From assembly GCA_945860955.1 (NCBI GenBank), contig CAMATH010000062.1, positions 1 to 46,328 on the forward strand: a stretch of 46,328 nt of DNA. Direction: 5' to 3'. The translations under genes and the position numbers were made by a program. The DNA is from Planctomicrobium piriforme. GTDB lineage: Bacteria > Planctomycetota > Planctomycetia > Planctomycetales > Planctomycetaceae. This document shows positions 5,866 to 24,200 of this stretch, piece by piece (position 1 is the first letter of the stretch; each line of letters opens with the position of its first letter). The notes under the pieces are model-generated. The model had not been told where the DNA came from and made no database searches. It saw only the letters and a program-made list of their open reading frames with translations.

Positions 5866-7743
5866 TCAGCCGGGCATTCCCGCGGGACGTTTTTGAAAGT
5901 ACCACCACTCGATTAACAGCAACGCGAAACCGGCCAAAGCGAACCAGGGCCAAAGCGGGCGATCGGTCTTCAGGGTGACCTGCGAAGCACCCACGCGGGT
6001 CTCCTTCATCTGCAGGGCATCGACCGTTGAGAGTTCCGTCTCGGGGGTCGATTGGAGACTGACGCCGGCACTTGCGACCTCTTTCCCTTCGGTGCGGATC
6101 GAATACCGTCCGATTTGGGGAGCGGGAACACCTGAGAGTAACCCGTCGACGGTGGTCTTCACATGGGCTTCGACCCCGTCCGGTGCGACCACGTTGTAAT
6201 CGGTCTCGGGAGTCATGATGCGCCCCGCCAAGAGGCCGGTTGGCTGACTCTTCGCTTCCGAAAGACCGGCCAACTTTCGCGCTTCGTCCAGGGTGTTCTT
6301 CACCAGCACGGGAAATCCGACGCGGTAAACCAGAGTCGAGCGTTCGGGGTGAAACAGAATCGAATACAGATCCTTCCCCCCCGCCGCTTTTTGCAGAACC
6401 AGGGGACCAGACCGACCCTGCGCCAGAATCTCATAGCCCCGTTCTTCGAACGCCCTGTCTTCGGTCCCTGGCCGCCGTTTGGGTTCGTCACCAAACATCA
6501 GATCCTTGAGTGACACGTACTGCAACAGAGGAGCGCTCCGTTGCCAGTCGACCACCTCGGCCACATCGGTCGTGATTTCGATCAGATCTTTCAGATCGGT
6601 GGGAACGAAACCCACCAGCACCATCATCCGCGCCTCAAAGTCGGCATGCGACGGCTGATCGGAGATCAAGAGATCGTAGAAGGCGGCGGTTCCCCCACCG
6701 TCATCATTCGGGTACAGCAAGACGCCCGGCGTCCCTTGCAGTGCCTGCCGATAGGTCATCAGGCTCAAGGGGCAATACACCACCACGTCGCGTGACGAGG
6801 GAAGATCGAGAAATGCCTGGTTGTCGAGAGTCAGCGAGTCGAACGCGTCGGGCTTGATCCGCACTTCCAGCGAGGCGGCGCTGAGGTCAGTGATTGGAAA
6901 CACCACGCGCTGCGACTTCCCCCCTTCGACGGTCAACAGCTCGGATCCCTCGATCTTGCCGTCACGCCACAACTCCACCGTCGTGGTCATTTGCGAGTTT
7001 TCGGTCGCGTCGAGTCGGACAAACACATCCCAGCGTTCCCTTGTCCGCTGCGCGTTCACCGCCGTGATTCCCACGTTGGCCCCGGGGGCCTCGATCTTCT
7101 GAAAGTTCAACTGGAACGGTAGGTCGAAATTGACCAGCGGGGGGACGTTGCCATCGGTGAACAGCATTACGGTTTCGATCGGGACGGTCAGCGACAGCGC
7201 CTGCGCCATCCGCAGGCCGTCTTCCAGTCGGCTCGACGTATGCTGTACCTGCAACTTGTCAAGCGCGTCGTGCAGCACCCGCTTGTTGTCGGTGAATTCG
7301 CAGAGACTGCGAGCGCTGTTGGAAACGCCAATGAGCGATAGCCTCTGCCCGGGCAGCAGGTTGTCGATCAGCTTGGTGACCTCTTCCTTGGCGACCGCCA
7401 ATCGCGACTCGCCTCCCGCCTTATCGAGCGCCGCCATGCTCGCCGAGCAGTCGATCAGAACGGGAAGGTACTGCGCCCGGTCGGCCCCGCTGGGGAGAAA
7501 CGGACGCATCGCCGCCAGCACCAGCGAACACAGCAGCAGAATCTGCAACAGCAGCAACAGACTGCGTTTGAATCGCTGAAACGGGGAATTGACCCGCTGG
7601 TCATTGATCACCGACCGCCACAAGGCCAGCGACGACACATCAAGCTGCGGACGCTTGAGTTTCAGGAAATAGAAGATGATCAGCGGGATCAGCAGCAGAA
7701 ACAGCCACGCCGACCACGGTTCCAGAATCCCCGGCCAACTCAT
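5866..7743 (-). CDS. BatA-like membrane protein with VWA domain
   Basis: A 625-residue protein. The N-terminal region has two hydrophobic helices (residues 13-27 and 61-78) separated by LKLKRPQLDVSSLALWRS, the hallmark of the aerotolerance/BatA N-terminal family. A von Willebrand A domain follows with an intact MIDAS DCSAS (Asp98, Ser100, Ser102) and a later FTDG. The C-terminus has a final membrane helix (WPWFALAGFALLLIEWWYF). The start chosen is ATG 7743-7741, which overlaps the TGA of the DUF58 gene as ATGA; a start three codons upstream is possible. In the MoxR/DUF58/VWA gene set such proteins are thought to act in metal-dependent assembly or stress functions at the membrane. The specific partner here is not known. 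Confidence 0.88.
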   Translation of the reverse strand: MSWPGILEPWSAWLFLLLIPLIIFYFLKLKRPQLDVSSLALWRSVINDQRVNSPFQRFKRSLLLLLQILLLCSLVLAAMRPFLPSGADRAQYLPVLIDCSASMAALDKAGGESRLAVAKEEVTKLIDNLLPGQRLSLIGVSNSARSLCEFTDNKRVLHDALDKLQVQHTSSRLEDGLRMAQALSLTVPIETVMLFTDGNVPPLVNFDLPFQLNFQKIEAPGANVGITAVNAQRTRERWDVFVRLDATENSQMTTTVELWRDGKIEGSELLTVEGGKSQRVVFPITDLSAASLEVRIKPDAFDSLTLDNQAFLDLPSSRDVVVYCPLSLMTYRQALQGTPGVLLYPNDDGGGTAAFYDLLISDQPSHADFEARMMVLVGFVPTDLKDLIEITTDVAEVVDWQRSAPLLQYVSLKDLMFGDEPKRRPGTEDRAFEERGYEILAQGRSGPLVLQKAAGGKDLYSILFHPERSTLVYRVGFPVLVKNTLDEARKLAGLSEAKSQPTGLLAGRIMTPETDYNVVAPDGVEAHVKTTVDGLLSGVPAPQIGRYSIRTEGKEVASAGVSLQSTPETELSTVDALQMKETRVGASQVTLKTDRPLWPWFALAGFALLLIEWWYFQKRPAGMPG

Positions 7744-8645
7744 CGCACCCACCCCTTTCGGCGAAAGAGGTCGAACAGGACCGATTCAATCGTGTCGGCC
7801 GACGAGATCGAAACGAACCGACCCGATCGCTGTCGGCAGATCGTCTCCAGCTCTTCCTCCAGCGCGAGCCGATGGTCCTGGTAGATTCCCAGCAGGTCAC
7901 CCGCATTCGAGACATCGAGCGCGTAGCCCGATTCGCTGTCGACGAAACGCACATCCCCCGTGACATCGGGATTGATCTCGGTCGGCCCCAGGATCTGGAC
8001 GGCGAACACCTCCAGTCCCGCGCTGAACAGCATGTTGAACGGTTTTTGCAGGTCGCCAAACGTCAGAAAGTCGGACACGAGCAACACCACCCCCCTTCCA
8101 CGGTGTCGGGTGAGCATTGAGTCGATGGCGCTCTCGATCGGATAGTCGCCCCCCGCCGGCAGCGTCTCGAGAAACTCAAACATCCGCTTCCGGCTGACCC
8201 GTCCGGTGCAGGGGGGCATGAACAGCGGCTCTTTCCCCGGGGTGTTGCAACTGTACATGCTCACCCGCTCGACGTTCATCAGCCCCATGATCCCAAAGGC
8301 GGCGGCGAGCTGCTTGGCCCGCTCGAATTTCCCCTCGAACTGCATCGAGGCCGAGGCGTCGACCAGGGCGACGACGTGCAGATCTTCTTCGTGGCGGTAG
8401 AGTTTGACGAACGGGCGTTCAAGTCGGGCGAAAATGTTCCAGTCGACGTTTTTCACGTCGTCACCCGCGACGTAATCGCGATAGTCGGCGAACTCGGTGC
8501 TGGTTCCCCCTTTGCCCGACTGATGCTCCCCCCGGGTGCGATTCGTCTTGCGCCGCATCGGGTTGATACGCATCCGCTCCAGCCGGGCGAGTACGGCGTT
8601 GTCGAGCAACGAGGAGAATCGGGCATTCCCGGCGGATGGGTTCAT
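7740..8645 (-). CDS. DUF58 domain protein
   Basis: A 301-residue soluble protein of the DUF58 family. The diagnostic motif YRDYVAGDDVKNVDW lies at residues 55-69, followed by FVKLYRHEEDLHVVALVDAS. A degenerate VWA-like fold is visible with DASAS (Asp96, Ser98, Ser100) and later LLVSDFL. The length is usual for the family. The ATG is 64 bases after the MoxR stop, and its own stop overlaps the BatA-like gene by 4 nt. DUF58 proteins are regularly encoded next to MoxR AAA+ ATPases and VWA proteins, as here, and are presumed to be MoxR substrates or adaptors. The function is inferred from context only. Confidence 0.93.
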   Translation of the reverse strand: MNPSAGNARFSSLLDNAVLARLERMRINPMRRKTNRTRGEHQSGKGGTSTEFADYRDYVAGDDVKNVDWNIFARLERPFVKLYRHEEDLHVVALVDASASMQFEGKFERAKQLAAAFGIMGLMNVERVSMYSCNTPGKEPLFMPPCTGRVSRKRMFEFLETLPAGGDYPIESAIDSMLTRHRGRGVVLLVSDFLTFGDLQKPFNMLFSAGLEVFAVQILGPTEINPDVTGDVRFVDSESGYALDVSNAGDLLGIYQDHRLALEEELETICRQRSGRFVSISSADTIESVLFDLFRRKGWVR

Positions 8646-8709
8646 GTCGCGTCAGGCAGGGGGGATGGAAGTGATTCGCAGGACGGAAACAAATCTTGAC
8701 GACTCTCCC

Positions 8710-9729
8710 CTAGGTCGGCGTTTCCGGCAGACTTTTCAGACACTCCTGAATCAGGTCGGCGACACGGATATTCTCTGCCTGGCCGTCGTAGTTCAGCAAC
8801 ACGCGGTGTTGTAGAACTTCGGGGGAAAAGTGCCGAATGTCTTCGAAGGCGACGTGGGCGCGTCCCTCCGCAAGTGCCCGCACTCGTGCCGCGCGAATCA
8901 GCGCTTGGGCCGCACGCGGGCTGGCCCCCCAGCGGACAAAGTTCTTGATTCGCTCGCTGGCATATTCGGATGTGGGATGCGTCGCCAGAACGAGCCTGCA
9001 GGCATAATCGCGAAGCGGGTCCGCGACCACCACTTTGTCGAGCGTGCTGCGCAATTCGAGAATTCGCGGTCCCGACAACAATTTGTGCAGGTCGATCTGT
9101 TTCCGGAGAATCGTGCGGCTGACCACTTCGTTCATTTCCGCCCGGGATAGAAACGGCACTTCGACTTTGAACATGAACCGGTCGAGCTGCGCCTCGGGGA
9201 GGGGATAGGTCCCTTCCTGTTCAATCGGATTCTGCGTCGCCAGAACGAAGAACGGCTGCGTCAGTGTGTAACTGGTTCCCCCCGTGGTCACCGACCCTTC
9301 CTGCATGGTCTCCAGCAGAGCCGACTGAGTTTTGGGTGACGCGCGGTTGATTTCGTCGGCCAGCAGCAACTGCGTGAAGATCGGGCCGCGACGGAATTCA
9401 AAGTGATACCGCCCCGAATCGTCGCTGGTCATGATGTTCGTGCCGATGATGTCGGCGGGCATCAGGTCGGGGGTGAACTGAATGCGGCGGAATTCGAGAT
9501 CCAGCACCCGCGACAGCGCTTTGACGAGTTCCGTCTTGCCGAGGCCGGGGACACCCTCCAACAGCACGTTGCCTCCACAGAAGATCGCGGTGAGGGCCGC
9601 CTCGACCACACGTTGCTGCCCGACGATCACGCGACCAATCGCTTCGCGGGCGTTGGCGAATTCCTGCTTGAATTGAGCCGCTTCGGCTTGCAGGGCGGCG
9701 GGATCGGTCGAGATGGGAATCGTACTCAT
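8710..9729 (-). CDS. MoxR family AAA+ ATPase
   Basis: A 339-residue AAA+ ATPase. Walker A is GVPGLGKT (residues 59-66), Walker B LLLADE (121-126) is followed by INRASPKTQSALLE, sensor 1 is ATQNP (164-168), and the MoxR hallmark PLPEAQLDRF is at about 177-185. The C-terminal lid contains GASPRAAQALIRAA. MoxR proteins are chaperone-like ATPases that remodel VWA-domain partners, and DUF58 and VWA genes sit on both sides here. It is separated by 81 bp from the double VWA gene upstream and by 64 bp from DUF58 downstream, with no obvious terminator, so co-transcription is likely. Confidence 0.96.
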   Translation of the reverse strand: MSTIPISTDPAALQAEAAQFKQEFANAREAIGRVIVGQQRVVEAALTAIFCGGNVLLEGVPGLGKTELVKALSRVLDLEFRRIQFTPDLMPADIIGTNIMTSDDSGRYHFEFRRGPIFTQLLLADEINRASPKTQSALLETMQEGSVTTGGTSYTLTQPFFVLATQNPIEQEGTYPLPEAQLDRFMFKVEVPFLSRAEMNEVVSRTILRKQIDLHKLLSGPRILELRSTLDKVVVADPLRDYACRLVLATHPTSEYASERIKNFVRWGASPRAAQALIRAARVRALAEGRAHVAFEDIRHFSPEVLQHRVLLNYDGQAENIRVADLIQECLKSLPETPT

Positions 9730-9810
9730 GAGGCGGTACCGGTTGTCGAAAGAGTGGGAGTGTGCCGGGTTGGAAGCGGGCCGTTGTCGAAAGAGATCGC
9801 GGAGGAGGCG

Positions 9811-12800
9811 TTATTTGTCCTGTTGCCGTTTGCGTTTCAGTTCCAACAGCCGGCCAGTGGTCGAATTCGCGTCGCGACTCGGCGCGGAAGTCGGTTGAGC
9901 GGGGGAGGTCGCGGGGGTTTGCGTACCCGGAGTGGGTTTGCGTGTCGGCTTTTTCGAGTCGCCACTGGCCATAGACGAGGGAAGCGTCGATTCTCCCCGG
10001 CGAGCCGCCAACTGGCTGCCGACCTGCTGTTTGCGTTCCAGCAGAGCGCCCATGGTTTGCGTCGTCACTCCTCGCTTCTTCGTCAGACCGAGCCAGCTTA
10101 GGATCGCGCCGAAGTCGATTTGAATCCGCCGCATGCCGACGTCCAGGGGAACGAGACACGCCAGCGCGATCAGGAACCAGTGATCGATCGGTTGCGAACT
10201 CCGCTTGGACTCGCGTTCTTTCGGGAAAACGTCGTCGACGGTCATGTCCTTTTCGAGAATCCGCCCCCCGGTCCGCTCGGCGACTTCCTTCAAGTTGAGC
10301 GGGTTGGAACGAAATCGCAGATACTCGGGCGAATAGGGGATGATGAACCCGCCAAACGCCCGGTCGTCTTTTCGTTCGACACCAGCCGGCGAGGCGGCGA
10401 TGTGATAGCGCCCCTTGCCCCACAGGGGGATCGTCGCCTGATACCGCCGCGGGCCGACCTGTTTCAGGGCAATGGTCTGCGTGCGGTCTTGCGGGCCGGC
10501 GATCGTCGCACCGATTTCCAGGAACGACTCGTTTTCAGCGAAGTCCTCGACACCAATCACCCCTTCGTTGCCATTCACGTAGGTCCACATCCGCAAATGG
10601 CCGGTCTTTTGCACCCGCGAGACTTCGGTCACCATCTGCTGAATGAACGGGTCAAAATGGTCCCAGGATGTCCAGCTCGACGACCAGTTGTTCGACAGGT
10701 CGGACGTAAAGGCCGCGGTCTTCCCCAATCCGTACTGCCAGACCGACAGCAGCGGATCGTATTCTGGTCCCTCACCCTCCGAGCCTTCGTCTCCCATCAC
10801 TTGCAGCACGGTCATCGCCGGGCTCGGCTTGGGGGTGGTGATTACGTACCCGTCGACCGTCGGCATCGCTTCGATCCCCTTGAGGATCTGGTGCGGCATC
10901 GCCACCTCGGGCATGACAGTCTTCCGCTGAATCATGCTCCGCTTCAGCGTCTTCGCCTCTTTGATGAAAATCCGGGGCAACTCGTTCGGATCGGAGGGAT
11001 AGTAGTACCGCCCCCCCGTGGTCATCGCGACCTGCCGTAACAGCCCGATTTCCATCCCCCCATGGGGAAACACCGCCACAGTGGAAACGGAAATCTGGTT
11101 GTCGACAAATTTCTGCAGGACGGCCGGTGCAGGGGGCTGGGGATCGCCATCCGAAATGATGATCACGTGCTTGGTCGCGGCATTGCTCTTTTGCAGTTCG
11201 GCCAGCGACATTTCCATCGTCCGCGCGAACGACGGCATATCCCCCGGCTGCGCCTGTTCGATCAATCGCGACAGTTTCTGATATTCGGACGCCGGGGTCA
11301 GCTTGAAGATCCATTTTTCACCCGCCTCGTAGTCGATCGCCGCGACTTCGTCCTGGCCTCCCAGAACCTTGATCGCTTCCCGCGTGATGCGCTTGGCCCA
11401 AGTGTTTCCCTCGGCGAATTCGCAGGTGTGCAGCACCAACACCAGCGCCCCTTTGGGAAGCACTTTCTTCTGCGAGATGTCCATCGTCACCGGGAGGGCG
11501 TCTTCGATCACCGTGCGGTGGTAACCGCCGGGACCGAAGCTGTTGTTCCCCCCCACCATGATGAACCCCAGCCCGTAATTGAAGACCGCGTCGCGAGTCG
11601 CCTGCATTTGAACCGGGTCGAACGCGTCGGCCGGCACGTTGCAGTAGATGATGCAGTCGTAGGTCAACAATCCCATCGGGTCTCGGGCGAATTCATACGC
11701 CGACTGCTGCTCGACAATGTGTTTGCCGTCGTCGAGAGCCCGTGTCAATTCCACTCGGTCGCGCGGCTCTCCCTTGGGGTCATACACAATCAGAATCCGC
11801 CCTTCGCCCTCCAGAAAGACCGAGTTGACGACCCGATTGTTCTGCTTGAGGTTGTCTTTTCCCTGCGGAACCTCGATCGTTGCGGAATACTCGTAGTAGC
11901 CTGCGGACCGCAGGTGGATCGGGAATGCGAACCGGTTCTTGCCCGCCTGAAAATCGACTTCTTTTTCCGCGATCTGCTTGCCGTTCTCCTCCAGCCGCAG
12001 AGTGCCTTTTCCAGCGGTCAATGACGACAGAAGAATCCCCGCTTCATACGTTTCTCCTTGCCGGACGAATTGCGGCAGCTCCAGCCGTTCCAGCCACACT
12101 TCGTCGTTGAAATCGTATTGAATGGGGAGAACATCGACCGAAATGCCCCGTGCTTTCAGATCGTCGAGGACACGATTGAGATTTCCTTCGGTCTGGATCC
12201 CGTCGCTGAACATCACGATCCGTCCCAGTTTGTCGTCGGGAAGCATCGCGGCGGCCAGCGACAACCCCTGTTCGACGTTGGTGGCGTCCCGGTCGATGAG
12301 GGAATTCAGCGTGATCGCCTCATCCATCGGCAACGACTTCCGGGCGGGAAATTCCACCGCCGCGTTCTTGCCAAACGTCACCAGCCCAACCGAGTCCTGC
12401 TTCGGCTTCTTGCGCGCCGTATTCGCGATGATCTCCAGCGAGTCGCGCATCATCTTGTTGCCGATCGAGTCGGAAACATCGACCAGGTACATCACCGCCA
12501 GTTCTTCACTGCTTTTGACCGAACGCGGCTCGGCAAGCAACATCGCGAACAGTCCGGCCAGTACCAGCCGCACAAACAATGAGGAGGCCGCCCGCCCGCG
12601 CACGAGGCCCGAATAGCCGCAGACCGACATCCACCAGATCCACGGTGTGACCAGCAGCAGCAAGAACGCTTTTGGATTCGCGAACAGGACGATGTGCTTC
12701 AGTTCCAGCGTCACGACCACGGCGGCGAACAGCGCGAGGAACAGCACGAGCGGAATGGAGTCGGTCCACGAGAGCCCCTTTTTGGGACGTGGGATGACCG

Positions 12801-12870
12801 ACTGGTAGGCCCCTTTGAGGCGGTTCCAGATCTTGTCAGCCAGCGACAGTCGCGTGATCGGGCGGTTCAC
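9811..12870 (-). CDS. Large membrane protein with two VWA-like domains and amidotransferase-like region
   Basis: A 1019-residue protein. Three hydrophobic segments lie in residues 40-112, followed by a VWA domain with intact MIDAS DVSDS (Asp131, Ser133, Ser135). A middle region (YDCIIYCNVPAD, then GFIMVGGNNSFGPGG) resembles the class I amidotransferase-like module found in planctomycete VWA proteins. A second VWA-like domain starts near residue 470, but its MIDAS position reads LVLHTCEF, so metal binding is probably lost, although IIISDGDP is kept. A late membrane helix (FLIALACLVPLDVGM) precedes a Lys/Pro/Thr-rich tail ending in RKRQQDK. The start is GTG at 12870-12868 with GAGGA upstream, only 10 bp after the ABC-NHL gene. 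It probably partners MoxR. The tail is low complexity and likely disordered. Confidence 0.87.
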   Translation of the reverse strand: MNRPITRLSLADKIWNRLKGAYQSVIPRPKKGLSWTDSIPLVLFLALFAAVVVTLELKHIVLFANPKAFLLLLVTPWIWWMSVCGYSGLVRGRAASSLFVRLVLAGLFAMLLAEPRSVKSSEELAVMYLVDVSDSIGNKMMRDSLEIIANTARKKPKQDSVGLVTFGKNAAVEFPARKSLPMDEAITLNSLIDRDATNVEQGLSLAAAMLPDDKLGRIVMFSDGIQTEGNLNRVLDDLKARGISVDVLPIQYDFNDEVWLERLELPQFVRQGETYEAGILLSSLTAGKGTLRLEENGKQIAEKEVDFQAGKNRFAFPIHLRSAGYYEYSATIEVPQGKDNLKQNNRVVNSVFLEGEGRILIVYDPKGEPRDRVELTRALDDGKHIVEQQSAYEFARDPMGLLTYDCIIYCNVPADAFDPVQMQATRDAVFNYGLGFIMVGGNNSFGPGGYHRTVIEDALPVTMDISQKKVLPKGALVLVLHTCEFAEGNTWAKRITREAIKVLGGQDEVAAIDYEAGEKWIFKLTPASEYQKLSRLIEQAQPGDMPSFARTMEMSLAELQKSNAATKHVIIISDGDPQPPAPAVLQKFVDNQISVSTVAVFPHGGMEIGLLRQVAMTTGGRYYYPSDPNELPRIFIKEAKTLKRSMIQRKTVMPEVAMPHQILKGIEAMPTVDGYVITTPKPSPAMTVLQVMGDEGSEGEGPEYDPLLSVWQYGLGKTAAFTSDLSNNWSSSWTSWDHFDPFIQQMVTEVSRVQKTGHLRMWTYVNGNEGVIGVEDFAENESFLEIGATIAGPQDRTQTIALKQVGPRRYQATIPLWGKGRYHIAASPAGVERKDDRAFGGFIIPYSPEYLRFRSNPLNLKEVAERTGGRILEKDMTVDDVFPKERESKRSSQPIDHWFLIALACLVPLDVGMRRIQIDFGAILSWLGLTKKRGVTTQTMGALLERKQQVGSQLAARRGESTLPSSMASGDSKKPTRKPTPGTQTPATSPAQPTSAPSRDANSTTGRLLELKRKRQQDK

Positions 12871-12880
12871 CGTGTGATCC

Positions 12881-14716
12881 TCACAATTTCAATTGCACGA
12901 GCCGACGATTTCCGGTGTCGGCGACGAAGACGCGCGCGTGCTTGTCGACAGCGAGTCCCCAGGGGGTCTTGAATTGCCCGTCTCCACTGCCGTTGGCTCC
13001 GAAGCGCCCCAGCAGCCGGCCCTTGAGGTCCAATCGCGACACCCGCCCCGCACCATACTCGACGACGAACAACTCGTCGGCGGGACTGAGGGCGATGTCG
13101 TAGGGGTAATTGAGTTCGGGCGACGCGGCCCCCAGGTCGGCTCCCAGAATCTCCACAAACGCGCCGTCGGTGGAAAAGACCTGGATCCGATTGTTGAACG
13201 CGTCGACCACATACAACCGGTCGCCACGACAGACCATGCCGCTGGGACGCTGGAACTGTCCCGGTTCTGTGCCATACCCACCGATCGACAACAGAAAGCG
13301 ATCGTCGGGAGAGAATTTTTGGATGCGGTCATTGCCGCCATACTCGCAGACGTAGAGGTTTCCCGCGTCGTCGCACGCCGTCGCGACCGGAAAAATGAAC
13401 TGACCGGCGTCCTTGCCGAACCCGCCCAACCGTCCCACCTCGGTCCCTTCCTGATCAAACAGGATGACTCGGTGGTAATGCGTGTCGGCGACCGCCAGCC
13501 GGCCATCCGGCAGGAGACAGATCTTCTCGGGACGGCCGACCGAGTATTCCGGCATCCACCACTGTTTCTTCAACTCACCTTCACCATCGTAAACCAACAC
13601 CCGGCCGACGTTGTCGAGAATGTACAGATCATCCCCTGCGGCATGGACGGCACGGGGGGCGGGAATGCGGATACCCTCGGACGGGAGCATCCAGTATCCC
13701 ACCTCGGTAAGAGTTTGATCTGACCCGGCCGTGGCCCCGCCGCAGCCCGATAGCGCGAAACAGAGCGCCAGCAGCAGTCCCAGCACCGAGAACCGGACCC
13801 GAACGCCAGCCTGCAACTCCTGCGCGAGGCGACTGATGTAAAATCGGCGGCGTTCCCCTGTCGGTTCGTGCCGGGCATCAAGTTCGTTCAGTCCGCGAGA
13901 CCGGCGAACCGCGTCGATCACCACGGGACCGTCGCTCACCGCGTCGGCCTGCAGGTCGTGAGGACGGACACAGCGATCGTGTGTCGAGGAGCGCGCGAGC
14001 CAGAACGCCGATTCCCGGGCGGGAATCCAGTTCGCTGCCCCCAGGTACCAGGCGAGCGCCTCGGACGGGGGATCGCGTTCCAATTGCTCGGCAGACCCGC
14101 TGAACACCACGTTTCCTTCCGCCAGGCCAATGACATGCTGCGCCGAGCGCAACACCAGTTCCGGTTCATGCGTCGAAAACACGAGGGAACCGCCCGCCGG
14201 ACGCTCGGCGTGCAGCACGTCCCAATAGGGTAGCAAACGTGCCGGCTCGACGTGTACCAACGGCTCGTCGAGAACCAGCACCCGCGCCTGGCTCGCCAGC
14301 GCTCGCGCCAGCGACAGACGGGAGCATTCCCCCTGCGACAGAAGATCTGGTCGCACGTCCGATTTGTCTTTCAGGCCAAAGAGTTCCAGCAATCGCTCGG
14401 CTTCCCCGGGCGGAGTTCCCGACGGCGTGACCCGCCGCAAATGTGCCACCACCGTTTCAGAAGGCCACAGACCATCCCCCGGCGGTCCCCAGAAGAGTGG
14501 CAATTCCCCGGGGGAGACGGCCAGGTGAGAAACGACAGTTCCCGCCGCTGGGCGTTCAAACCCCGCCAGCAGGTTGAGCAACGTAGTCTTCCCCGCCCCC
14601 GACGGCCCCAAGATCGCGATCACGCCGGCTGGAATGTCCAGGCATGTCACGTCGAGTCGAGGCTGTCCCCTGCCGGCGACCCGGACCTTATCGAGTTTCC
14701 AGAGGATTTTCTTCAT
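12881..14716 (-). CDS. ABC importer ATPase fused to a lipobox/transmembrane segment and NHL beta-propeller
   Basis: A 611-residue fusion. Residues 1-220 are an ABC ATPase: Walker A GPSGAGKT (37-44), signature LSQGE (126-130), Walker B VLVLDE (146-151), His183 in the H-loop. Residues 230-300 contain CVRPHDLQA, reminiscent of a TOBE-like regulatory domain of importer ATPases. A hydrophobic stretch follows, LLLALCFALSGC, a perfect lipobox with Cys325. Residues 330-611 are six NHL repeats (units such as LYVVDAFNNRIQVFSTDG), predicting a six-bladed propeller outside the membrane. ATG 14716-14714 overlaps the permease stop as ATGA and fixes the start; longer in-frame starts would lie inside the permease gene. 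No good ribosome site for a separate propeller gene was seen (a TTG at 13816 has GGAG directly adjacent). The importer role comes from the permease and binding protein upstream. Confidence 0.85.
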   Translation of the reverse strand: MKKILWKLDKVRVAGRGQPRLDVTCLDIPAGVIAILGPSGAGKTTLLNLLAGFERPAAGTVVSHLAVSPGELPLFWGPPGDGLWPSETVVAHLRRVTPSGTPPGEAERLLELFGLKDKSDVRPDLLSQGECSRLSLARALASQARVLVLDEPLVHVEPARLLPYWDVLHAERPAGGSLVFSTHEPELVLRSAQHVIGLAEGNVVFSGSAEQLERDPPSEALAWYLGAANWIPARESAFWLARSSTHDRCVRPHDLQADAVSDGPVVIDAVRRSRGLNELDARHEPTGERRRFYISRLAQELQAGVRVRFSVLGLLLALCFALSGCGGATAGSDQTLTEVGYWMLPSEGIRIPAPRAVHAAGDDLYILDNVGRVLVYDGEGELKKQWWMPEYSVGRPEKICLLPDGRLAVADTHYHRVILFDQEGTEVGRLGGFGKDAGQFIFPVATACDDAGNLYVCEYGGNDRIQKFSPDDRFLLSIGGYGTEPGQFQRPSGMVCRGDRLYVVDAFNNRIQVFSTDGAFVEILGADLGAASPELNYPYDIALSPADELFVVEYGAGRVSRLDLKGRLLGRFGANGSGDGQFKTPWGLAVDKHARVFVADTGNRRLVQLKL

Positions 14717-16584
14717 CGGCTTCCCCATCGTGCCAGAAATGGACGGATCAACAGAAATCCCGACGCCAGCAGGACCGGAACCAGCACCGTCACAATCGTC
14801 ATCGCCGACAAGACCGCATTGCGGCCGTAGTGCATCTGAATATAGAGCGTGACGGGAGCCGAGGAAATGCCGGGCGGAGCCAGCAGTTGACCGGTCGCCA
14901 GATCCAGATACGCGCTGTACCACAGCAGCCAGACGGCGGCGAATTGTTTCACTCCGGCCATCCGCCAGATCAAATTCCGCCCCGCCGCTCGGCGAGACGC
15001 GTCGGTTCCCTGTGTCAGCAGTCTGGCCGCGTGACAGGCCGACGGATCAATCGACTCCCGAACCAAAATCGCCAGACACCCGGCCCGCGGCAACAACAAG
15101 AGCGCCTGTGCCAACAGCCAGGGGATCACCGTTCGCGTCGCGAGACCGAATCCCAGGAAGCGGAATGCCACCAGGAGCCAAAGGCTCAGGAGCAACGCGC
15201 CGGCGAGTCCGGGGATCATGCTGAGAAACCAGGCGAATCGTTTGATTCCGTATTGCCGAGTGGGAGAACCTTCACACCGGCCCATTCCGCGAAGCACGTC
15301 GCACGACGACCGATCAGCAGGACCAACGTCACGGGAGGGCGAGGCTCCTGCCGAGCCGCCACTGGACTCCCGCAGTTCATTATGACGTCCATCGGGCAGC
15401 CCTCGACTCTCGCCCGATGCATCAGGATCCGACGGGAATTCCAATGTCCCGGATGATGGCTGACTCAACGACGGCTTCTCTTTACCGTCAGTCGATGGCT
15501 GCCCCTTGCACGCGTATTGACTCACGAACCCACATTGGCGGCTCAGCAGGAGCTTCGCCCTCCCGTTGGGCGGTTCCTCGCTAATGCACGTCGCGCTCCC
15601 AATCGACTCTCGGGCGTTCGCCGATCGCCGCGAACTCCACCGCACCACCCCAATCACCGCCGCTGTCGCCAAACCCGAAACCAACAATCCGACCGTAATC
15701 TCCCGCGCGAGATTCATTCGGGTCGCCGGCTGATTCCACAGCGACTTCACCCCGATGGCAAAATCGGCTCCCACCAGGACCGACGGCGCGACGCAGACGA
15801 TCCCCAACGCTCCGACCAAAAACAGGCCAAATCCCAATCGTCGCGAGACGGACAACTTTACCGGGATCGGACTGTGCGCCGAATGTCGAATACCAGTTCG
15901 CATCGCCAACGCTGCTGGCACCAAAATGAGCAATTGCAACAGGGCCGGGACGATCGCGAGGATCGCCGACCGCTCGAGACTGACCCCGGTCGCCTGGGCA
16001 TCAATCAGCCAGACCGTCCATGACGGGCGGGCCAGTCGGGCGACGAGTTCGAATTCCTGAAATGCCAGCAAAAACATTACCCCCAGTGCCGGGGCGGCCG
16101 CCTGCCCGTTCACTCGAATCCACAAGCGGAATTCGCCGAATGCCCGGCGGAACCATGACGGTTCGCGTGCCAGAGTCAGCCGCCACGCATAAGCCGCGGC
16201 TGGCGAAAGCGTTGGTCCCGGTCCAAAACAGGCGACCGCGACTCCCACCGGAACGACGCGCGCCACCAGCAGCAGAAACAGCAGCGCTTCGTTCCAGATC
16301 CAGTACTGGGTCGTCAGGTGTGTTCGTATGAAGTCGACGTGATTCCAGGGAGAAATTCGCCAGAAGTCGGCCGCCGACAGGAACAGTGTCCAACCGTTAT
16401 ATGCGTATCCGACAAACATCCCCGGCATCACGAAAGGCAACCACAATAACCCCCACAACGCGGTACTTCGCCAGCCTCGCGCCGTTTGGATGACCGCTCC
16501 TCCCATGCGGGCAAACCCCCAGGCGACCAGCGCGACAAAAATCGCCCGGAGCAGCGCCACGCCGCACGCCGCTTCGAAGCTCAC
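14713..16584 (-). CDS. Iron(III)-type ABC importer permease, double module, with in-frame insertion
   Basis: A 623-residue integral membrane protein of the FbpB/AfuB type, in which two binding-protein-dependent permease modules are fused. Multiple helices are visible, e.g. TALWGLLWLPFVMPGMFVG early and SMIPGLAGALLLSLWLLVAF late. The start is GTG 16584-16582, overlapping the TGA of the binding-protein gene (GTGA) with GGGGGGAG eight bases upstream; an ATG at 16668 would lie 85 bases inside that gene. About 100 residues between VRWSSRRSANARES and GIKRFAWFLSM are hydrophilic, unlike the family, and translate two inverted copies of a 29-nt repeat (GGSAGASPSR from one copy). This looks like an insertion in a cytoplasmic loop that kept the frame. 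Substrate: probably a metal, by family. Confidence 0.85.
   Translation of the reverse strand: MSFEAACGVALLRAIFVALVAWGFARMGGAVIQTARGWRSTALWGLLWLPFVMPGMFVGYAYNGWTLFLSAADFWRISPWNHVDFIRTHLTTQYWIWNEALLFLLLVARVVPVGVAVACFGPGPTLSPAAAYAWRLTLAREPSWFRRAFGEFRLWIRVNGQAAAPALGVMFLLAFQEFELVARLARPSWTVWLIDAQATGVSLERSAILAIVPALLQLLILVPAALAMRTGIRHSAHSPIPVKLSVSRRLGFGLFLVGALGIVCVAPSVLVGADFAIGVKSLWNQPATRMNLAREITVGLLVSGLATAAVIGVVRWSSRRSANARESIGSATCISEEPPNGRAKLLLSRQCGFVSQYACKGQPSTDGKEKPSLSQPSSGTLEFPSDPDASGESRGLPDGRHNELRESSGGSAGASPSRDVGPADRSSCDVLRGMGRCEGSPTRQYGIKRFAWFLSMIPGLAGALLLSLWLLVAFRFLGFGLATRTVIPWLLAQALLLLPRAGCLAILVRESIDPSACHAARLLTQGTDASRRAAGRNLIWRMAGVKQFAAVWLLWYSAYLDLATGQLLAPPGISSAPVTLYIQMHYGRNAVLSAMTIVTVLVPVLLASGFLLIRPFLARWGSR
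15332..15360 (-). repeat. 29-nt repeat, copy A (inside permease gene)
   Basis: Read on the minus strand it begins GGCGGCTCGGCAGGAGCC and ends CTCGCCCTCCCG. It is identical over 29 nt to the copy at 26248-26276 and matches the copy at 15537-15565 at 27 of 29 positions. In the permease frame it encodes GGSAGASPSR. It is in inverted orientation to the 15537 copy, the two ends starting GGCGGCT facing each other across a 176-nt spacer. Confidence 0.85.
15537..15565 (+). repeat. 29-nt repeat, copy B (inside permease gene, inverted to copy A)
   Basis: Plus-strand copy beginning GGCGGCTCAGCAGGAGCTT. It differs from copies A and C at two positions (G to A at position 9, C to T at position 18). With copy A it bounds a 234-bp block (15332-15565) that is a whole number of codons, so its presence does not shift the permease frame. 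Its permease translation, read from the other strand, is NGRAKLLLS. Confidence 0.85.
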
Positions 16585-17723
16585 GGAACGTACTCCCCCC
16601 GCAACCAGTTCAACACGTCGTTTCTGATGGAGATGAGCGGCCGCAAGTCGGCACTTTCGCTTGCCCATGTTCGCAACGGACGCACCTCAGCGGGGAGCTG
16701 TGCCTCGTCAACATCACCCAGCGGAATCTGTCGGGAGGCGGAACGGGCGAGCGCGATTTCGGTTTCCGCCGACAACAGGAAGTCGATCAGCGATTGGGCC
16801 GCCTCGGTGTGAGCCGAACCTTTTATCATCGCGACCGTGTTGGGAATGCAGATGGTTTTTCCCTCGACGCGTACCGGAAGTCCAGCGACCGGTCGGCCGG
16901 CGTCGAGCGCCCCGAAATAGTCGTCTGTATCGGTGAAGCCCAGATCGCACGCCCCTCCCGCGACCAGGTTTTTGGTCATCGCATTTCCGTCCGCGAGTTT
17001 CAGTCCGCGGCGCTGCCACTCACGCTGTCGGCTGATCGTCTCTTCCCCGCCCCAAACCGACCACCACAGACAGTACTGCGTCAAAGTGGTGCCGAACATC
17101 GGTTTTGCGATCGTCACCCGCGAGAGGTCGGCAGAGTCCAACCGCTCGCGAATCGCCGACTCGTCAGCGGCGAGCGCCTGCGGGTTGACGATATACATCC
17201 GCAGCCGGGCGGCGAAGCCTGTCCACAACCCCTCTTCGTCGCGGTATTGCGGGGGAATCCGTCGATGCCCGGTCCCGATGTACGGCTCCAGTAATCCCTC
17301 CCGGGCCAGTTCCAGCGTCCCCAGCAGTTCATTGTTCCAAAAAACATCGCACTGCGGCTGGTCCCGCTCGGAAACGATGCGGTTGACCAAACCGAGCGAT
17401 TTGTTCGCTTCGGTGTCGTAGCGAATGGCCAACGTGATTCCGGTCTCGCGTTCGAAGTCGCGCAAAATCGGCTCAGCGAATTCCGCGTCGTGCGCACAAT
17501 ATACCACCAGAGTCTGCGCATCCATTCGCGGCGAGAGCCACCACAGAACGGCTACCGCCAACACCACCATCGCGATGCCAGCGACCGCCGTGCGAACGGC
17601 GGACGTTGATTTCGCCTTTGTCGGGGAATCGTCGGCCAGATCGATCGCGCCCCCCGCGTCCGGCGAATCGCTTCGTGGGGCCGCGTCGGTCGGATCAGGT
17701 ATGGGGACGGCGACGTCGGGCAT
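16581..17723 (-). CDS. Extracellular solute-binding protein (iron(III)-type), membrane-anchored
   Basis: A 380-residue family 1 (FutA/FbpA-like) binding protein, starting MPDVAVPIPDPTDAA. A hydrophilic leader of about 40 residues is followed by one membrane helix (VAGIAMVVLAVAVLWWL, residues 45-63), then the mature domain TLVVYCAHDAEFAEPILRDF, which is the typical N-terminal strand of the family. Further family features are CDVFWNNELLGTLEL, GFTDTDDYF and the C-terminal INFL-type helix region (SLIDFLLSAETEIALA). There is no lipobox, so it is probably held by an uncleaved N-terminal anchor. A GTG start at 17792 would add 23 residues; neither start has a clear ribosome site. First gene of the eleven-gene run. 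Supplies substrate to the permease immediately downstream. The metal specificity is inferred from family only. Confidence 0.88.
   Translation of the reverse strand: MPDVAVPIPDPTDAAPRSDSPDAGGAIDLADDSPTKAKSTSAVRTAVAGIAMVVLAVAVLWWLSPRMDAQTLVVYCAHDAEFAEPILRDFERETGITLAIRYDTEANKSLGLVNRIVSERDQPQCDVFWNNELLGTLELAREGLLEPYIGTGHRRIPPQYRDEEGLWTGFAARLRMYIVNPQALAADESAIRERLDSADLSRVTIAKPMFGTTLTQYCLWWSVWGGEETISRQREWQRRGLKLADGNAMTKNLVAGGACDLGFTDTDDYFGALDAGRPVAGLPVRVEGKTICIPNTVAMIKGSAHTEAAQSLIDFLLSAETEIALARSASRQIPLGDVDEAQLPAEVRPLRTWASESADLRPLISIRNDVLNWLRGEYVP
16593..16600 (-). promoter_or_regulatory. Ribosome binding site deciding the GTG start of the importer permease
   Basis: On the minus strand GGGGGGAG ends eight bases before GTG at 16584-16582. 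Together with the GTGA overlap this supports the GTG over the upstream ATG at 16668. Confidence 0.6.
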
Positions 17724-18247
17724 GCCAGGGAGAGGTCGTGTGCGGTGGTGTTGAAAGAGCCGATGATACTTTTGGCGGTGGACGTTGGACACTGCCGACG
17801 TCGGTTGGGTTACGGGGAATAGAGAGTCGCCGAGAGGTCGATTTCGTCTATTTTAAAGTCTGTCGCATCGTAGCCGTCTTTCTCTGAAAGACTGGCCCGA
17901 TGTGCTTCCGCCGTCCAAACAACGCACTGGGGGCCGCCCCAAGACTCACAAAGAGATCGAAGAGAGTCCCGGCGAAGAGGCGAAGCCCCGACGGAGGGAA
18001 ATTTACTTTTTGACGGACGGCTCGCTTGGGATGTTGCGCCAGCCCAGAGTGCGCCGAGTGACGGAGAACGCACAGCGGGCCGCGCACTCGGGGAGTGCGG
18101 GCTACATTTCCGCGGAACTTATCGACGAGACGTCGCGTCTGACACTACGGATTCCCGTTCGGGACTGGTATCATCCACACTCCGGATGGTTCAACTGACG
18201 CTTGCACCCCGCCGTTCGAAGCCATTTCGCGGAAGGAGCTGCTTTCC
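17724..18247. other. Divergent intergenic region between the long minus-strand operon and the macroglobulin gene
   Basis: About 520 bp lie between the two divergent genes, so promoters for both should be here. Short minus frames at 17810-18087 have no recognisable product. A palindrome TCCCGTTCGGGA lies at 18153-18164 and a -10-like TATCAT at 18170, but I found no convincing -35 box at normal spacing. A short inverted repeat (CCGAGTG near 18052 with CACTCGG near 18083) is also present. The ribosome site GGAAGGAG lies nine bases before the ATG at 18248. Confidence 0.5.
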
Positions 18248-21200
18248 ATGAGTTCGAAGTCCTGGTTCTTGTGTGTTTCGGCACTGGCCTGTCTGGGGAT
18301 CGCCGCGATGGAGATGTCTGCCGCCGAGAAGCCCGCGTCCGAGCTTCGGCAGAAGGCGCTGCAGGAGCTGCAGGCGGGAAACTTCCGCGATGCGTGGGGC
18401 CATTATCAGGAACTGGTGCTGGGGACCGAGGTTGATCCGCAGCGCATCGATCAGGATGTCGCGGAAGCGGTGCAGTCGGCCCAGAGTCTGGGTGAAGTGG
18501 GCAAAGTGGATGAATTCCTCGAGAATGGAATCGCTAAACACGGGGGCAACTGGCGGTTTCTGCGGGCAGTTGCGCGGGTGTATCTCAATTTCGATCACAG
18601 CGGGTTTGAAGTCGCGGGCAAATTCCAGCGTGGTCAGAGTCGAGTCCGTGGCAAATGGATGAACGCGACCCGACGCGACCATGGTCGCGCTTTGCAATTG
18701 TTGAATCAGGGGTTGCCGCTGGCGCTTCAAGACAACGACAAGCCAGCGGTCGCCGAGTTTCAGTTCCTGTTCGCGCAGATCCTACTGGCGGGGCAGGGGG
18801 GGAGCGACGCGTGGCGTTTGCAATTGAAGACCGATTTCGCGTCGATTCCCGACTACGAGCCGGGCTTTTACAACTACGGCGAAGGATCGCGAGGCGCGCC
18901 GGTGGATGTCGACGGGAACCCAGTGTTTCACAAATTGCCGGCGAACTGGGATGCCGCCGCGACAGATGGCGAGCGCTGGCGCTATCTGTTGTCGCAAGTC
19001 ATTGAATCCGACCCGGCAAGGCGGGATGAGGTGGAAGCGACGTTCGCCGACTTCTGTCGCAGCCAGTTCGGTGTTCAGACCATGGCCCAGTTTGGGTTTG
19101 GCCCGACCGACGACCACGAAGATGATGCGGATGGCAACGCGGCGGAAAGCGGCCCGTTCGCGCTGAGTTCCCTCACCGACGAGGAGACGATCGCGCGGCT
19201 GGCGACGGGAGTGAAGCGGTTTCAGCTTCCGGACGAGTTCAACTACGTCAAACTCTACCGAAACATCGCCGAGCGTGCGAAAGCGAGCCGGTCGACCTGG
19301 ACTGAGACCGCCCGGGGTCAACGTTGCCAGGAGTATGAAGACCGGCGTCAGTACGATCGCGCCGCGGAGGAATGGAAACTGGCGATCACTGAATATGGGC
19401 CCGGTGTGGGGGACCACCGCAAGCAGCGGTTGGAGCAGGTCGTGGGAAACTGGGGGCGGTTCGAAAACGGAGTGGTGCAGCCAGCGGGAAGTGGGGCGAC
19501 ACTCGATTACCGATTCCGCAATGGGACCGAAGTGGTCTTCGAGGCGCGGGAAATCAAGGTGGGCGAACTGCTGGCGGCCGTGAAGAGTTACCTCAAGACC
19601 AGTCCGAAGCAGGTCGACTGGCAGAAGACCAATATCCAGGACATCGGGTATCGCCTGGTTGAGCAGAATGAAGCGGCCTTTCTGGGAAAGTCGGTCGCGA
19701 GCTGGACGCTGGAACTGAAACCGCGCGCCGGGCACGTCGATGATCGCGTGACGGTCACGACGCCGCTGCAAAAGGCCGGTGCCTACCTGGTCACGGCGAA
19801 GATGGCGGGAGGCAACCTCAGTCGGATCATCGTGTGGGTCGCCGACACGGTCATTGCCAAAAAGCAACTGGACGGAAAGAGCTGGTATTACATCGCCGAC
19901 GCGGTGACCGGACTGCCGATCGAAAAGGCAAATGTCGAGTTTTTCGGCTGGAAACAGGTGCAGGTGGTGCCCAACCGCAATGACTTCAAAGTCGTTGTGG
20001 AAAACAAGGCGTTCTTCAGCGACGCGAACGGCCAGATCATTCTGGACCAGAAGAACCTGTCGCCGGAATTTCAATGGCTGGTGATCGCGACGAACCCACA
20101 GGGTCGGCTGGCGTACCTGGGCTTCACGAACGTCTGGTACGGGAACACTTACGATCCCGAATACAACGCCAAGAAGGCGCTGTTGATCACCGACCGTCCG
20201 GTTTACCGACCCGCGCAATCGGTGAAATTCAAGTTCTGGATTCAGCAGACAAAATACGATCAGCCGACGACCTCGGCGTTCGCCGGCCAGACATTCCGGG
20301 TCCACATCAACGATCCCAAAGGGCAGTTGGTCTCGGAGAAGAACTACAAGGCGGACGAATTCGGCGGTTTGTCCGACGAGTATGAGCTTCCCAAAGGGGC
20401 GATGTTGGGGACTTATGGAATCTCCGCATTCCTCGGTCAGGAGATGATCGGTGGCGGAAATTTCCGGGTCGAGGAATACAAGAAGCCGGAGTTCGAGGTG
20501 ACCGTCGACTCTCCGAAAGAGCCGGTGAAATTGGGCGAAAAAGTGTCCGCGACAATCCGGGCGAAGTACTACTTTGGATCGCCGGTGACCAAGGCCAAAG
20601 TGAAGTACAAAGTGCTGCGGACCGTCGCTGAGACGCACTGGCATCCCCCGGCTCCGTGGGACTGGTTCTACGGACGCGGCTACTGGTGGTTCACTCCCGA
20701 TTACAATTGGTACCCGGGTTGGAATTCGTGGGGCTGTATGCGGCCGGCACCGATCTGGTTCCCGAGAGGGGGGACACCGCCTGAAGTTGTGGCCGACGTG
20801 GAGGCCGAGATCGGTCCCGATGGAACTCTCGCGGTGGAAATTGACACGCTGCCCGCGAAAGAACTGCACGGGAACCAGGATCATCAATACACAATCACCG
20901 CCGAAGTGGTCGACGAATCGCGACGAACGATTGTCGGGACTGGAAACGTACTGGTCGCACGCAAACCATTCCAGGTGTTTGTCTGGCTGGGGCAGGGCTA
21001 CTTCCAGGTGGGCGACACCATTGACGCGTTCGCGCATGCCCACACACTCGATCGAAAGCCGGTGAGCGGGAAGGGAGAGCTGACGCTCTACAAAGTCACC
21101 TATGACAACAAACAGAATCCGGTGGAAACCGCGATTCGCACCTGGGAAGTCGATACCGACGACCAGGGGGATGCGCGGCAAAAGATCGCTGCGACGGAAG

Positions 21201-24200
21201 CAGGCCAGTATCGACTGTCGTACAGGCTGACCGATTCCAAAGGGAACAAACAGGAGGGAGCCTCGGTTTTCGTGATCCGGGGTCAGAAATTCGATGGCCG
21301 GGAGTTCCGATTCAATGATCTGGAACTGGTCACCGACAAACGCGAGTACGCGCCGGGTGAGAAGGTCAACGTCCTGATCAACACGAATCGCGCCGGGGGC
21401 GCGGTGCTGCTGTTCCTGCGTCCCACCAATGGCATCTACCTCCCTCCGAAACTGATTCGGCTGCAAGGGAAGAGCGTGGTGGAAGCGGTGGCGGTCGTGC
21501 AGAAAGACATGCCGAACTTCTTCATCGAAGCGGTGACCGTTGCGAATGGCAAGCTGCATTCCGAAACCCGCGAAGTGGCCGTTCCGCCGGAAAAACGGGT
21601 TTTGAATGTGGAGGTTGTTCCCTCGAGTTCGGAGTACCTGCCGGGCGCGGCAGCCAAGGTGAAAGTGAAACTCACCGATCTGGCGGGAAAACCGTTCGTG
21701 GGATCGACCGTGGTGTCGGTCTACGACAAGAGCCTGGAGTATATCTCAGGCGGCGGAAACGTCCCCGAAATCCGCGAGTTCTTCTGGAAGTTCCGGCGGA
21801 ACCACTATCCGCAGACGGAATCGACATTGCAGCGATCGTTCGGCAACATGCTGAAAAGCGGTGAGATCGGAATGTCGAATCTCGGCGCGTTCGGTGATTT
21901 GATCGTCGAACAGATGGAAGGCTTGGGGGGGCCTCCCGGCGGGCCTGGTGGTTTCGGCGGCGGGCGAGCGAGAGGGATGATGATGCGTGGGATGCGTGGT
22001 GGTGGGAGCGGACTTGGAGGAGGCGGGGGTGGTCTCATGGAACCGATGGCGGCGGCGATGGAAATGGACGCGGCCCCAGCGTCTGATCGCGCGGGGATGA
22101 CCGGGCTGGGGGCTGAGGGGGGGCCACCCGCCGACGTCGCGCCGACGGTCCGTTCGGAGTTCGCCGACCTCGCGTTTTGGGCGGCTGCCGTCACGACGGC
22201 GGCTGACGGAACCGCCGAGGTCGATTTCAAAATGCCCGAAAATCTCACCGGCTGGAAAGTGAAGGTTTGGGGACTCTCGCACGGTGCCCGGGTGGGGCAG
22301 GGGGAGGCGGAAGTTGTCACGCGGAAAAACGTGATCGTCCGCTTGCAGGCACCGCGATTCTTCGTCGAGAAGGACGAAGTCGTGCTGTCGGCGAATGTCC
22401 GCAATGAGTTGAAGTCGGCGAAGTCCGTAAAGGTCTCGCTCGATCTGGCCGGCGGGACGCTCGAACCACTGTCTCCTCTCACCGCGACCATCGACATCGC
22501 CGCTGGTACCGAGAAACGGGTGGACTGGCGGGTCAAAGTGACGCACGAAGGGGAAGCGGTCGTACGGATGTCGGCGATCACCGACGAGGAATCCGACGCG
22601 ATGGAGATGAAATTCCCAGTCTACGTTCACGGCATGCTCAAGATGGAGTCGTACAGCGGCGTCGTTCGCCCGACGGACGAGTCGGGCAAGGTGTCTCTGC
22701 GCATTCCAGCAGAACGCCGCATCAGCGACACCCGCATTGAGTTTCGGTTCACTCCCACACTCGCGGGGGCGATGGTCGATGCCCTGCCGTATTTGGTGGA
22801 ATACCCGTACGGTTGCACCGAACAAACGCTAAACCGGTTTGTTCCAACCGTGATCACGCAGCGGATCCTGCAACAAATGCAGCTCAACCTCAAAGAGATT
22901 CAGGAGAAGCGGACGAATCTCAACGCGCAGGAGTTGGGAGACGATCGCGAACGGGCTGCGGGATGGAAGCGGTTTGACCGCAATCCGGTCTTCGACGAAG
23001 CCGAAGTGACCGCGATGGTGCAGTCGGGAGTGCAGGCACTCACCGAAATGCAGCTTTCGGACGGCGGCTGGGGCTGGTTCAGCGGGTTTGGCGAACACAG
23101 TTGGCCACACACGACGGCTGTCGTCGTGCATGGTCTGCAGGTCGCGAAACAGAACGATGTCGCGCTGGTTCCCGGGATTATGGAACGGGGTGTCGAGTGG
23201 CTGAATCGCCACCAGGCGCGGCAGGTCGAATTGCTGAAGGAATTCGCCGTCAAGGACTCCAAGAATCCGAAGAAGGAACACGCCGACGATCTCGACGCGC
23301 TCGTCTTCATGGTGCTTTCCGATGCCGACGTCGCCGACGCCGACATGCGGGAGTTTCTGTATCGAGATCGGGTCAGACTCTCGGCGTATGGCAAGGCGGT
23401 TTACGGACTGGCGCTGCACCAGCAGCAACAGAACGACAAGCTGGCGATGATTCTTCAAAACCTCGATCAGTTCCTGGTCCAGGATGAAGAGAATCAGACG
23501 AGTTACCTGAAGCTCCCTGCGGGGACCGCCTGGTGGTACTGGTACGGCAGCGAGGTCGAGGCGAACACCTGGTACCTGAAACTGCTCGCCCGAACCGCAC
23601 CTCAGGATCCCAAGACCTCGGGACTGGTGAAATACCTGCTCAACAATCGCAAGCACGCCACCTACTGGAGCAGCACCCGCGACACGGCTTACGCGATCGA
23701 GGCGCTCGCCGAGTATTGGAAAACGTCGGGTGAAAATCAGCCCGATCAAACGATCGAAGTGTGGTACGACGGCCAAAAGGCGAAGGAAGTCCACGTCGAC
23801 AAGTCGAATCTGTTCACCTTCGACAATAAGTTCGTGCTGTTTGGCGACGCCGTTGAGACGGGTGCGCGGACCGTGGAATTGCGCAGGAAGGGAAAAGGTC
23901 CGGTCTACTACAACGCGTACGTCACCAACTTCACGCTGGAGGATCAGATCACCCGCGCCGGCCTGGAGGTGAAGGTGAACCGCAAGTACTACAAGTTGAC
24001 GAAGTCGGACAAGCAAGTGGCGGTCGCTGGCTCCCGCGGTCAGGCGGCTTTGCAGAAGGTCGAGAAGTACGACCGGACAGAACTCGAAAACCTGGCGACA
24101 TTGAAATCGGGGGATCTGGTTGAGATTGAACTCGAGATCGACAGCAAGAACGACTACGAATATCTGCTGTTCGAAGACATGAAGGCTTCGGGTTTCGAAC

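Follow-up and report, generated by a model that had tools for sequence, protein, structure and literature searches.

The window analysed is a stretch of 46,328 nucleotides, and the gene of interest lies on its minus strand, running from 14716 to 12881 with an ATG at 14716 and a stop codon at 12883-12881. An earlier note on this DNA had described positions 12881-14716 as a single continuous frame, which was borne out, and the encoded protein has 611 amino acids. The order of parts given there, namely ABC ATPase, TOBE, a lipobox LSG-Cys325 and NHL repeats, was likewise recovered by Pfam, AlphaFold2 and Foldseek, and the cysteine was found in 74/74 fused orthologues.

The ABC importer ATPase domain, which is FbpC/CysA-like, occupies residues 1-232 (14021-14716, minus strand). 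The Pfam family ABC_tran matched residues 32-153 of the 611-residue chain, and the PDB profile and fold matches of this half were 9j4r and 3fvq (both FbpC) and 1z47 (CysA). The motifs GPSGAGKT, LSQGE, VLDEP and STH were taken by us as Walker A, signature, Walker B and H-loop, respectively; with these, an ABC_tran domain and a TOBE region, the protein has the make-up of an FbpC/CysA-type ATPase. It shares with the FbpC-type Fe3+ importers (9j4r, 3fvq) the succession of ATPase and TOBE and the gene order of solute-binding protein, permease and ATPase. Unlike FbpC, the ATPase of the fused family continues into a lipoprotein, and a conserved W-x-P...GLW stands where the FbpC Q-loop is expected (residues 73-86, about 14459-14500), the consensus and place of the Q-loop being assumed to be as in FbpC-type ATPases. 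At this position W76, G82, L83 and W84 were invariant and P78 near-invariant in alignment A2, and no Gln occurred among the conserved columns listed.

The TOBE-like domain covers about residues 244-311 (13784-13987, minus strand) and was assigned from PDB profile matches and from AlphaFold2 strands between 248 and 311, the block pLDDT being 86-94 for residues 241-310. Next comes a putative lipoprotein signal with its lipobox inside the chain, at residues 305-325 (VRVRFSVLGLLLALCFALSG-C; 13742-13804, minus strand). It was assigned by conservation in the fused orthologues; in the protein of the window a 16-residue uncharged stretch ends in LSG-Cys325 (Cys codon 13744-13742). The FbpC-type ATPase profile matches in the PDB extend to residue 311-313, and the last TOBE strand, 306-311 in the AlphaFold2 model, shares residues with the n-region of this signal. 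The NHL beta-propeller makes up the last 276 residues, 336-611 (12884-13711, minus strand). Pfam places NHL repeats in this C-terminal half and Foldseek aligned it with the NHL domain 6d69 at a TM-score by target of 0.84, so both the repeats and the fold of an NHL-repeat propeller are present. The AlphaFold2 model of the full chain (mean pLDDT 91, pTM 0.54) consists of the ATPase domain, the TOBE region, a break at 318-334, where pLDDT is below 50, and an all-beta domain that starts at 338; the block confidence is 94 as far as residue 310, falls to 54 and 36 and recovers in the propeller.

The importer and cassette genes next to it are also on the minus strand. The ATPase gene overlaps by 4 bp with a gene at 14713-16668 that was named importer permease from context, i.e. 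from its position and conserved synteny; the product has 8 hydrophobic 19-residue windows, and the Pfam and PDB searches returned no family match and no solved relative for it. The gene at 16581-17792 encodes the solute-binding protein of the importer, of Fe3+ type by its Pfam SBP match and by its nearest solved structures, the ferric-binding proteins 3wae, 4elo and HitA. Its best NCBIfam matches were 2-aminoethylphosphonate-binding proteins, and these were weak and far below the cut-off. By eye the same protein has an apparent N-terminal hydrophobic anchor without a lipobox. An open reading frame of 2062 amino acids at 18248-24436 contains GCTEQ, which presumably resembles the thioester motif of alpha-2-macroglobulin.

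Downstream of the fused gene is a gene for a membrane protein with VWA and glutamine-amidotransferase-like parts (9811-12870; Pfam VWA_2 and GATase1_like, synteny), the gene that usually follows that of the NHL lipoprotein. The same cassette comprises a MoxR AAA+ ATPase (8710-9729; Pfam AAA_3, synteny), which passes the Pfam cut-off for bpMoxR while matching AAA_3 far better, a DUF58 protein (7740-8645; Pfam DUF58, synteny) and a BatA-type VWA protein (5866-7752; Pfam BatA and VWA_2, synteny). These four genes (5866-12870) were often seen beside the NHL lipoprotein across the phylum. A neighbourhood holding MoxR, vWA and a propeller is also found in the beta-propeller MoxR-vWA ternary systems, in which, according to PMC7159879, propeller and vWA parts are fused in one protein. 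In the window the propeller gene is separate from the vWA gene, and on this ground the assignment as such a conflict system was rejected.

Distribution of the fused and split genes

The earlier note had proposed that the full-length architecture be sought in other planctomycetes, and it was found there. The 111 loci that were sorted, a fetched subset in which split loci among the family matches were sampled in part, comprised 74 fused genes, 31 pairs of genes on one stretch and 6 loci with an NHL gene and no ATPase gene on the stretch. One of these six, L127, is a fused gene cut by a contig end and was kept as NHL-only in the lipobox and start-codon counts; L031, whose contig ends before the NHL part, was excluded from the 111. 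Counted by genus, fused genes occurred in 26 and split or lone genes in 17, with g29 and, through L127, g71 in both. Fused and split states thus both exist, and the possibility that the orthologues are always two genes, which would have spoken against the note, did not hold.

A search of 59 genomes, including that of the source organism, gave full-length fused matches in many genera, and 127 of 170 genomes of the source organism's family were matched at E up to 1e-40. Several of the fused copies come from single-contig assemblies, and one fused locus, L203, belongs to the cultured aquatic Thalassoglobus neptunius KOR42. Among 392 genomes drawn from the phylum, 97 were matched, with fused copies outside the source family in G215, G328, G387 and G516. 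The best 80 of 475 relatives, together with a follow-up, also included fused copies from contigs whose titles name Lentisphaerae, Verrucomicrobia and Phycisphaerales. The fused copies titled Verrucomicrobiota or Lentisphaerota (L185, L202, L209, L230) may reflect horizontal transfer or mis-binned contigs.

The selection on the fused gene was estimated from 14 close pairs. The dN/dS ratio was below 1 in the ATPase, TOBE, signal and NHL segments of all of them, the highest value being 0.84 for the 19 codons of the signal segment of L025/L129. Judged from these comparisons, translation runs through the junction in this frame. The NHL part had a lower dN than the other half in 13 of the 14 pairs, so the two halves behave as if they were separate proteins. 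An assembly or frame error merging two genes could be suggested by the frame breaks seen in two copies, in the propeller of L006 and in the ATPase part of L017, both of which lie away from the junction and were counted as fused there. It was rejected, and its probability is taken as negligible, because 74 fused loci, several in single-contig assemblies, keep the Cys and the preceding Arg or Lys and purifying selection acts on every segment tested, across the junction included. The frame break of L006, the closest relative (G002), falls at about residue 431-442 in a fragmented assembly.

The fused and split states were interleaved on a tree of the NHL domain (118 rows), built by a quick search with at most a few rows per large genus and with L127 recoded from split. 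At least 14 changes of state were counted, a count which does not separate fusion from fission, and 4 of them are forced by well-supported branches; genus g29 contains both kinds of copy. In the 31 split pairs the median distance from the ATPase stop to the Cys codon downstream is 119 nt, with one pair at 1.7 kb, and the ATPase is in another frame than the lipoprotein in 30 of the 31. With close pairs, a short gap and a different frame, one small indel could switch a locus between split and fused. Since lineages pass from one state to the other with the lipobox kept, the join itself seems dispensable and the products of both states are probably equivalent.

The surroundings of the NHL gene differ between families. 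In the family of the source organism the importer genes are usually upstream of it, fused in many genera and split on the same stretch in others, while in G009, G022 and G034 the importer genes and the NHL gene are on different contigs. Other families of the class were represented by 15 stretches, of which 13 carry the NHL gene together with a VWA gene, and no importer gene was found on these; the stretch of L044 ends beside the NHL gene, with the upstream side outside the data, and the NHL-VWA gap is about 3 kb in L035 and L036. No cassette gene was matched in L038 and L046 of these families, and the VWA neighbour was not found in L051, L062, L209 and L230. The NHL-propeller lipoproteins of the other families have a homologous propeller, a Gly-Cys lipobox and similar downstream genes, but they are encoded alone and with an N-terminal signal peptide, unlike the fused gene. 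On this comparison of genes, the propeller is a separate lipoprotein, of which other families carry a homologue beside VWA-MoxR genes with no importer found.

The internal lipobox and its predicted processing

A Cys closes the hydrophobic stretch in every one of the 74 fused orthologues, with Gly at position -1 in 72 and Ser in 2; position -3 is variable (Leu in 29/74, Gln in 5/74). The uncharged run before the Cys has 12-18 residues (median 13) and is opened by Arg (59) or Lys (15) in every fused copy. The lipobox Cys was chosen by a score favouring a hydrophobic context, and five positions initially assigned to an earlier Cys were shifted to the following GC; alignments A1 and A2 agree with the choice independently of the score. 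Cys325 is the sole Cys among the invariant columns of alignment A2 (42 rows), and a Gly-Cys box is also present in all 37 split or NHL-only loci. The segment thus has the charged n-region, the short uncharged h-region and the lipobox ending in [GAS]C of a Sec/SPII lipoprotein.

A strict scan for internal lipoboxes was run on 754 ORFs from 126 sequences longer than 6 kb, window included, a set that is partly redundant and enriched for this neighbourhood. It matched 32 of the 48 fused ORFs and 10 of the 706 others. Of these ten, 4 are truncated copies of the fused gene, 3 are permease-NHL fusions and the remaining 3 are polytopic proteins. The internal lipobox pattern exceeds chance. Lipoprotein signal peptides are taken to act at the start of the chain, and here the signal lies about 300 residues into it. 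Because of this position, and because 26 of the 74 fused genes have no start codon near it, the protein was not classed as an ordinary bacterial lipoprotein but only as working like one.

The mechanism that we consider probable is that the fused gene encodes a natural two-protein precursor, an Fe3+-type importer ATPase followed by an NHL lipoprotein, which would be lipidated by Lgt at Cys325 and cut by LspA. The ATPase gene of an FbpABC-like importer would have been joined in frame to the downstream NHL-lipoprotein gene, which placed the signal peptide in mid-chain. Sec, probably with the help of SRP, would take up the hydrophobic segment, and the ATPase would stay in the cytoplasm; Lgt would then lipidate Cys325 and LspA would cut before it. 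The propeller would end up as an ordinary lipoprotein, anchored in the membrane on its periplasmic side. The freed ATPase would keep a short C-terminal remnant of the signal, which may be trimmed. By this route the products of fused and split genes would be equivalent. Two homologues each of LspA and Lgt are encoded in the source genome. The retention of the fusion through much divergence counts against cleavage, as the fusion could be useful as such, and so does the variable position -3.

The earlier note had offered two readings of the segment, a transmembrane tether or cleavage by signal peptidase II. The second is favoured by the evidence, and the first appears less likely in view of the short stretch, the invariant Cys and the split orthologues. 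In an uncut tether, a transmembrane anchor would hold the ATPase and the extracytoplasmic propeller in one chain and so couple binding or sensing to import. The single open frame retained in 26 genera is consistent with this, and so is the segment itself, which is somewhat more hydrophobic in fused than in split genera (2.75 vs 2.34, p=0.005; 26 vs 17 genera, which are not independent, with the genus of L127 among the split); this higher value fits an anchor as well as a need for SRP. Nevertheless, a run of 12-18 uncharged residues has the size of a signal-peptide h-region and is short for a lasting transmembrane helix, and a plain tether can do without a Cys and as a rule requires a longer helix, which argues for cleavage by SPII. 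The segment also begins where TOBE ends. In the model the TOBE strand reaches 311 and the confidence then collapses, which suggests that no linker to the membrane would be left while the ATPase is docked. In importers of this type TOBE is positioned away from the membrane, which would make it hard for an uncut chain to dock on its permease. With the join seemingly dispensable in split orthologues and the propeller occurring away from importer genes in other families, the tether was judged unlikely. The same two points leave unsupported the suggestion of the earlier note that import energy is coupled to an extracytoplasmic sensor.

Lipidation by Lgt with no cut by LspA would give a type II membrane protein lipidated at an internal Cys. 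As the lipobox is recognised by Lgt too, this variant would preserve the same letters and would otherwise agree with the same data as the cleavage model; the LspA homologues in the genome and the Gly or Ser at -1, which suits a cut site, make it very improbable.

Free lipoprotein could also arise if ribosomes restart near codon 301-311, the full-length fusion being a by-product. Counted from the Cys, the window has two in-frame candidates, TTG at -24 and GTG at -14, with AGGAG abutting the TTG, and ATG, GTG or TTG occurs at -30 to -16 in 48 of the 74 fused genes. Against this, neither the TTG nor the GTG of the window has an SD-like motif 5-16 nt upstream, 11 of the 74 fused genes lack a candidate codon even at -40 to -13, and an ATG at -40 to -13 was present in only 14/74 fused genes as against 19/31 split genes. 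This explanation was considered quite unlikely, and as a general route it was ruled out by the 26 of 74 genes that lack any start codon at -30 to -16. In some species an internal start may serve as an extra source of product.

Known systems and a second fusion

The nearest mechanism known to us is that of the cytochrome b/c1 polyprotein FbcH of Bradyrhizobium, which is made from one gene and gives two proteins on cutting by signal peptidase I. The planctomycete gene resembles it in that one bacterial gene holds a second protein whose internal signal is cut after export, this cleavage being predicted here. It differs in that FbcH involves signal peptidase I and cytochromes, whereas the present gene has a lipobox of SPII type that is preceded by a soluble ATPase and followed by a lipoprotein. 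An internal signal peptide is likewise present at the HCV core-E1 junction, where, according to PMC5402940, it is cut by signal peptidase and the upstream remnant is then trimmed; that system is viral, uses an enzyme of the eukaryotic ER and involves no lipid. Among the literature matches listed, which were mainly open-access, no description of an ATPase-lipoprotein fusion was found, and these matches also included no paper on a long cytoplasmic domain ahead of a lipoprotein signal. As far as these matches go, an SPII version in which an ABC ATPase or permease precedes the signal is new.

A second fusion was present in seven loci (L256 and L258-L263), where the NHL lipoprotein is joined through a lipobox to the C-terminus of a long protein in which 8 to 12 hydrophobic windows were counted. 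In 5 of the 7, a gene for a binding protein was identified alongside. The upstream half gave no Pfam or PDB match; a profile built from these halves identified importer-permease ORFs in relatives (e.g. L273, L214, L167, L266) and gave no match to the permease of the window. The upstream half is taken to be a permease. The seven permease-NHL loci form one clade, and together with L257 they come from the families f92, f99 and f10 of the phylum.

We lean somewhat towards the wider proposal that SPII is a processing enzyme of natural bacterial polyproteins, a PVC lipoprotein having been joined at least twice, once to an importer ATPase and once to an importer permease, with a working lipobox each time and with fixed product amounts on both sides of the membrane. 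If true, Lgt and LspA would accept a folded cytoplasmic domain of about 300 residues ahead of the signal, and bacteria could split polyproteins by signal peptidase II. Lipoprotein predictors that consider only the N-terminus would overlook such proteins in annotation. The two different partners, ATPase and permease, make the idea directly testable. The same permease-NHL layout was also observed in L257, a locus outside the tree.
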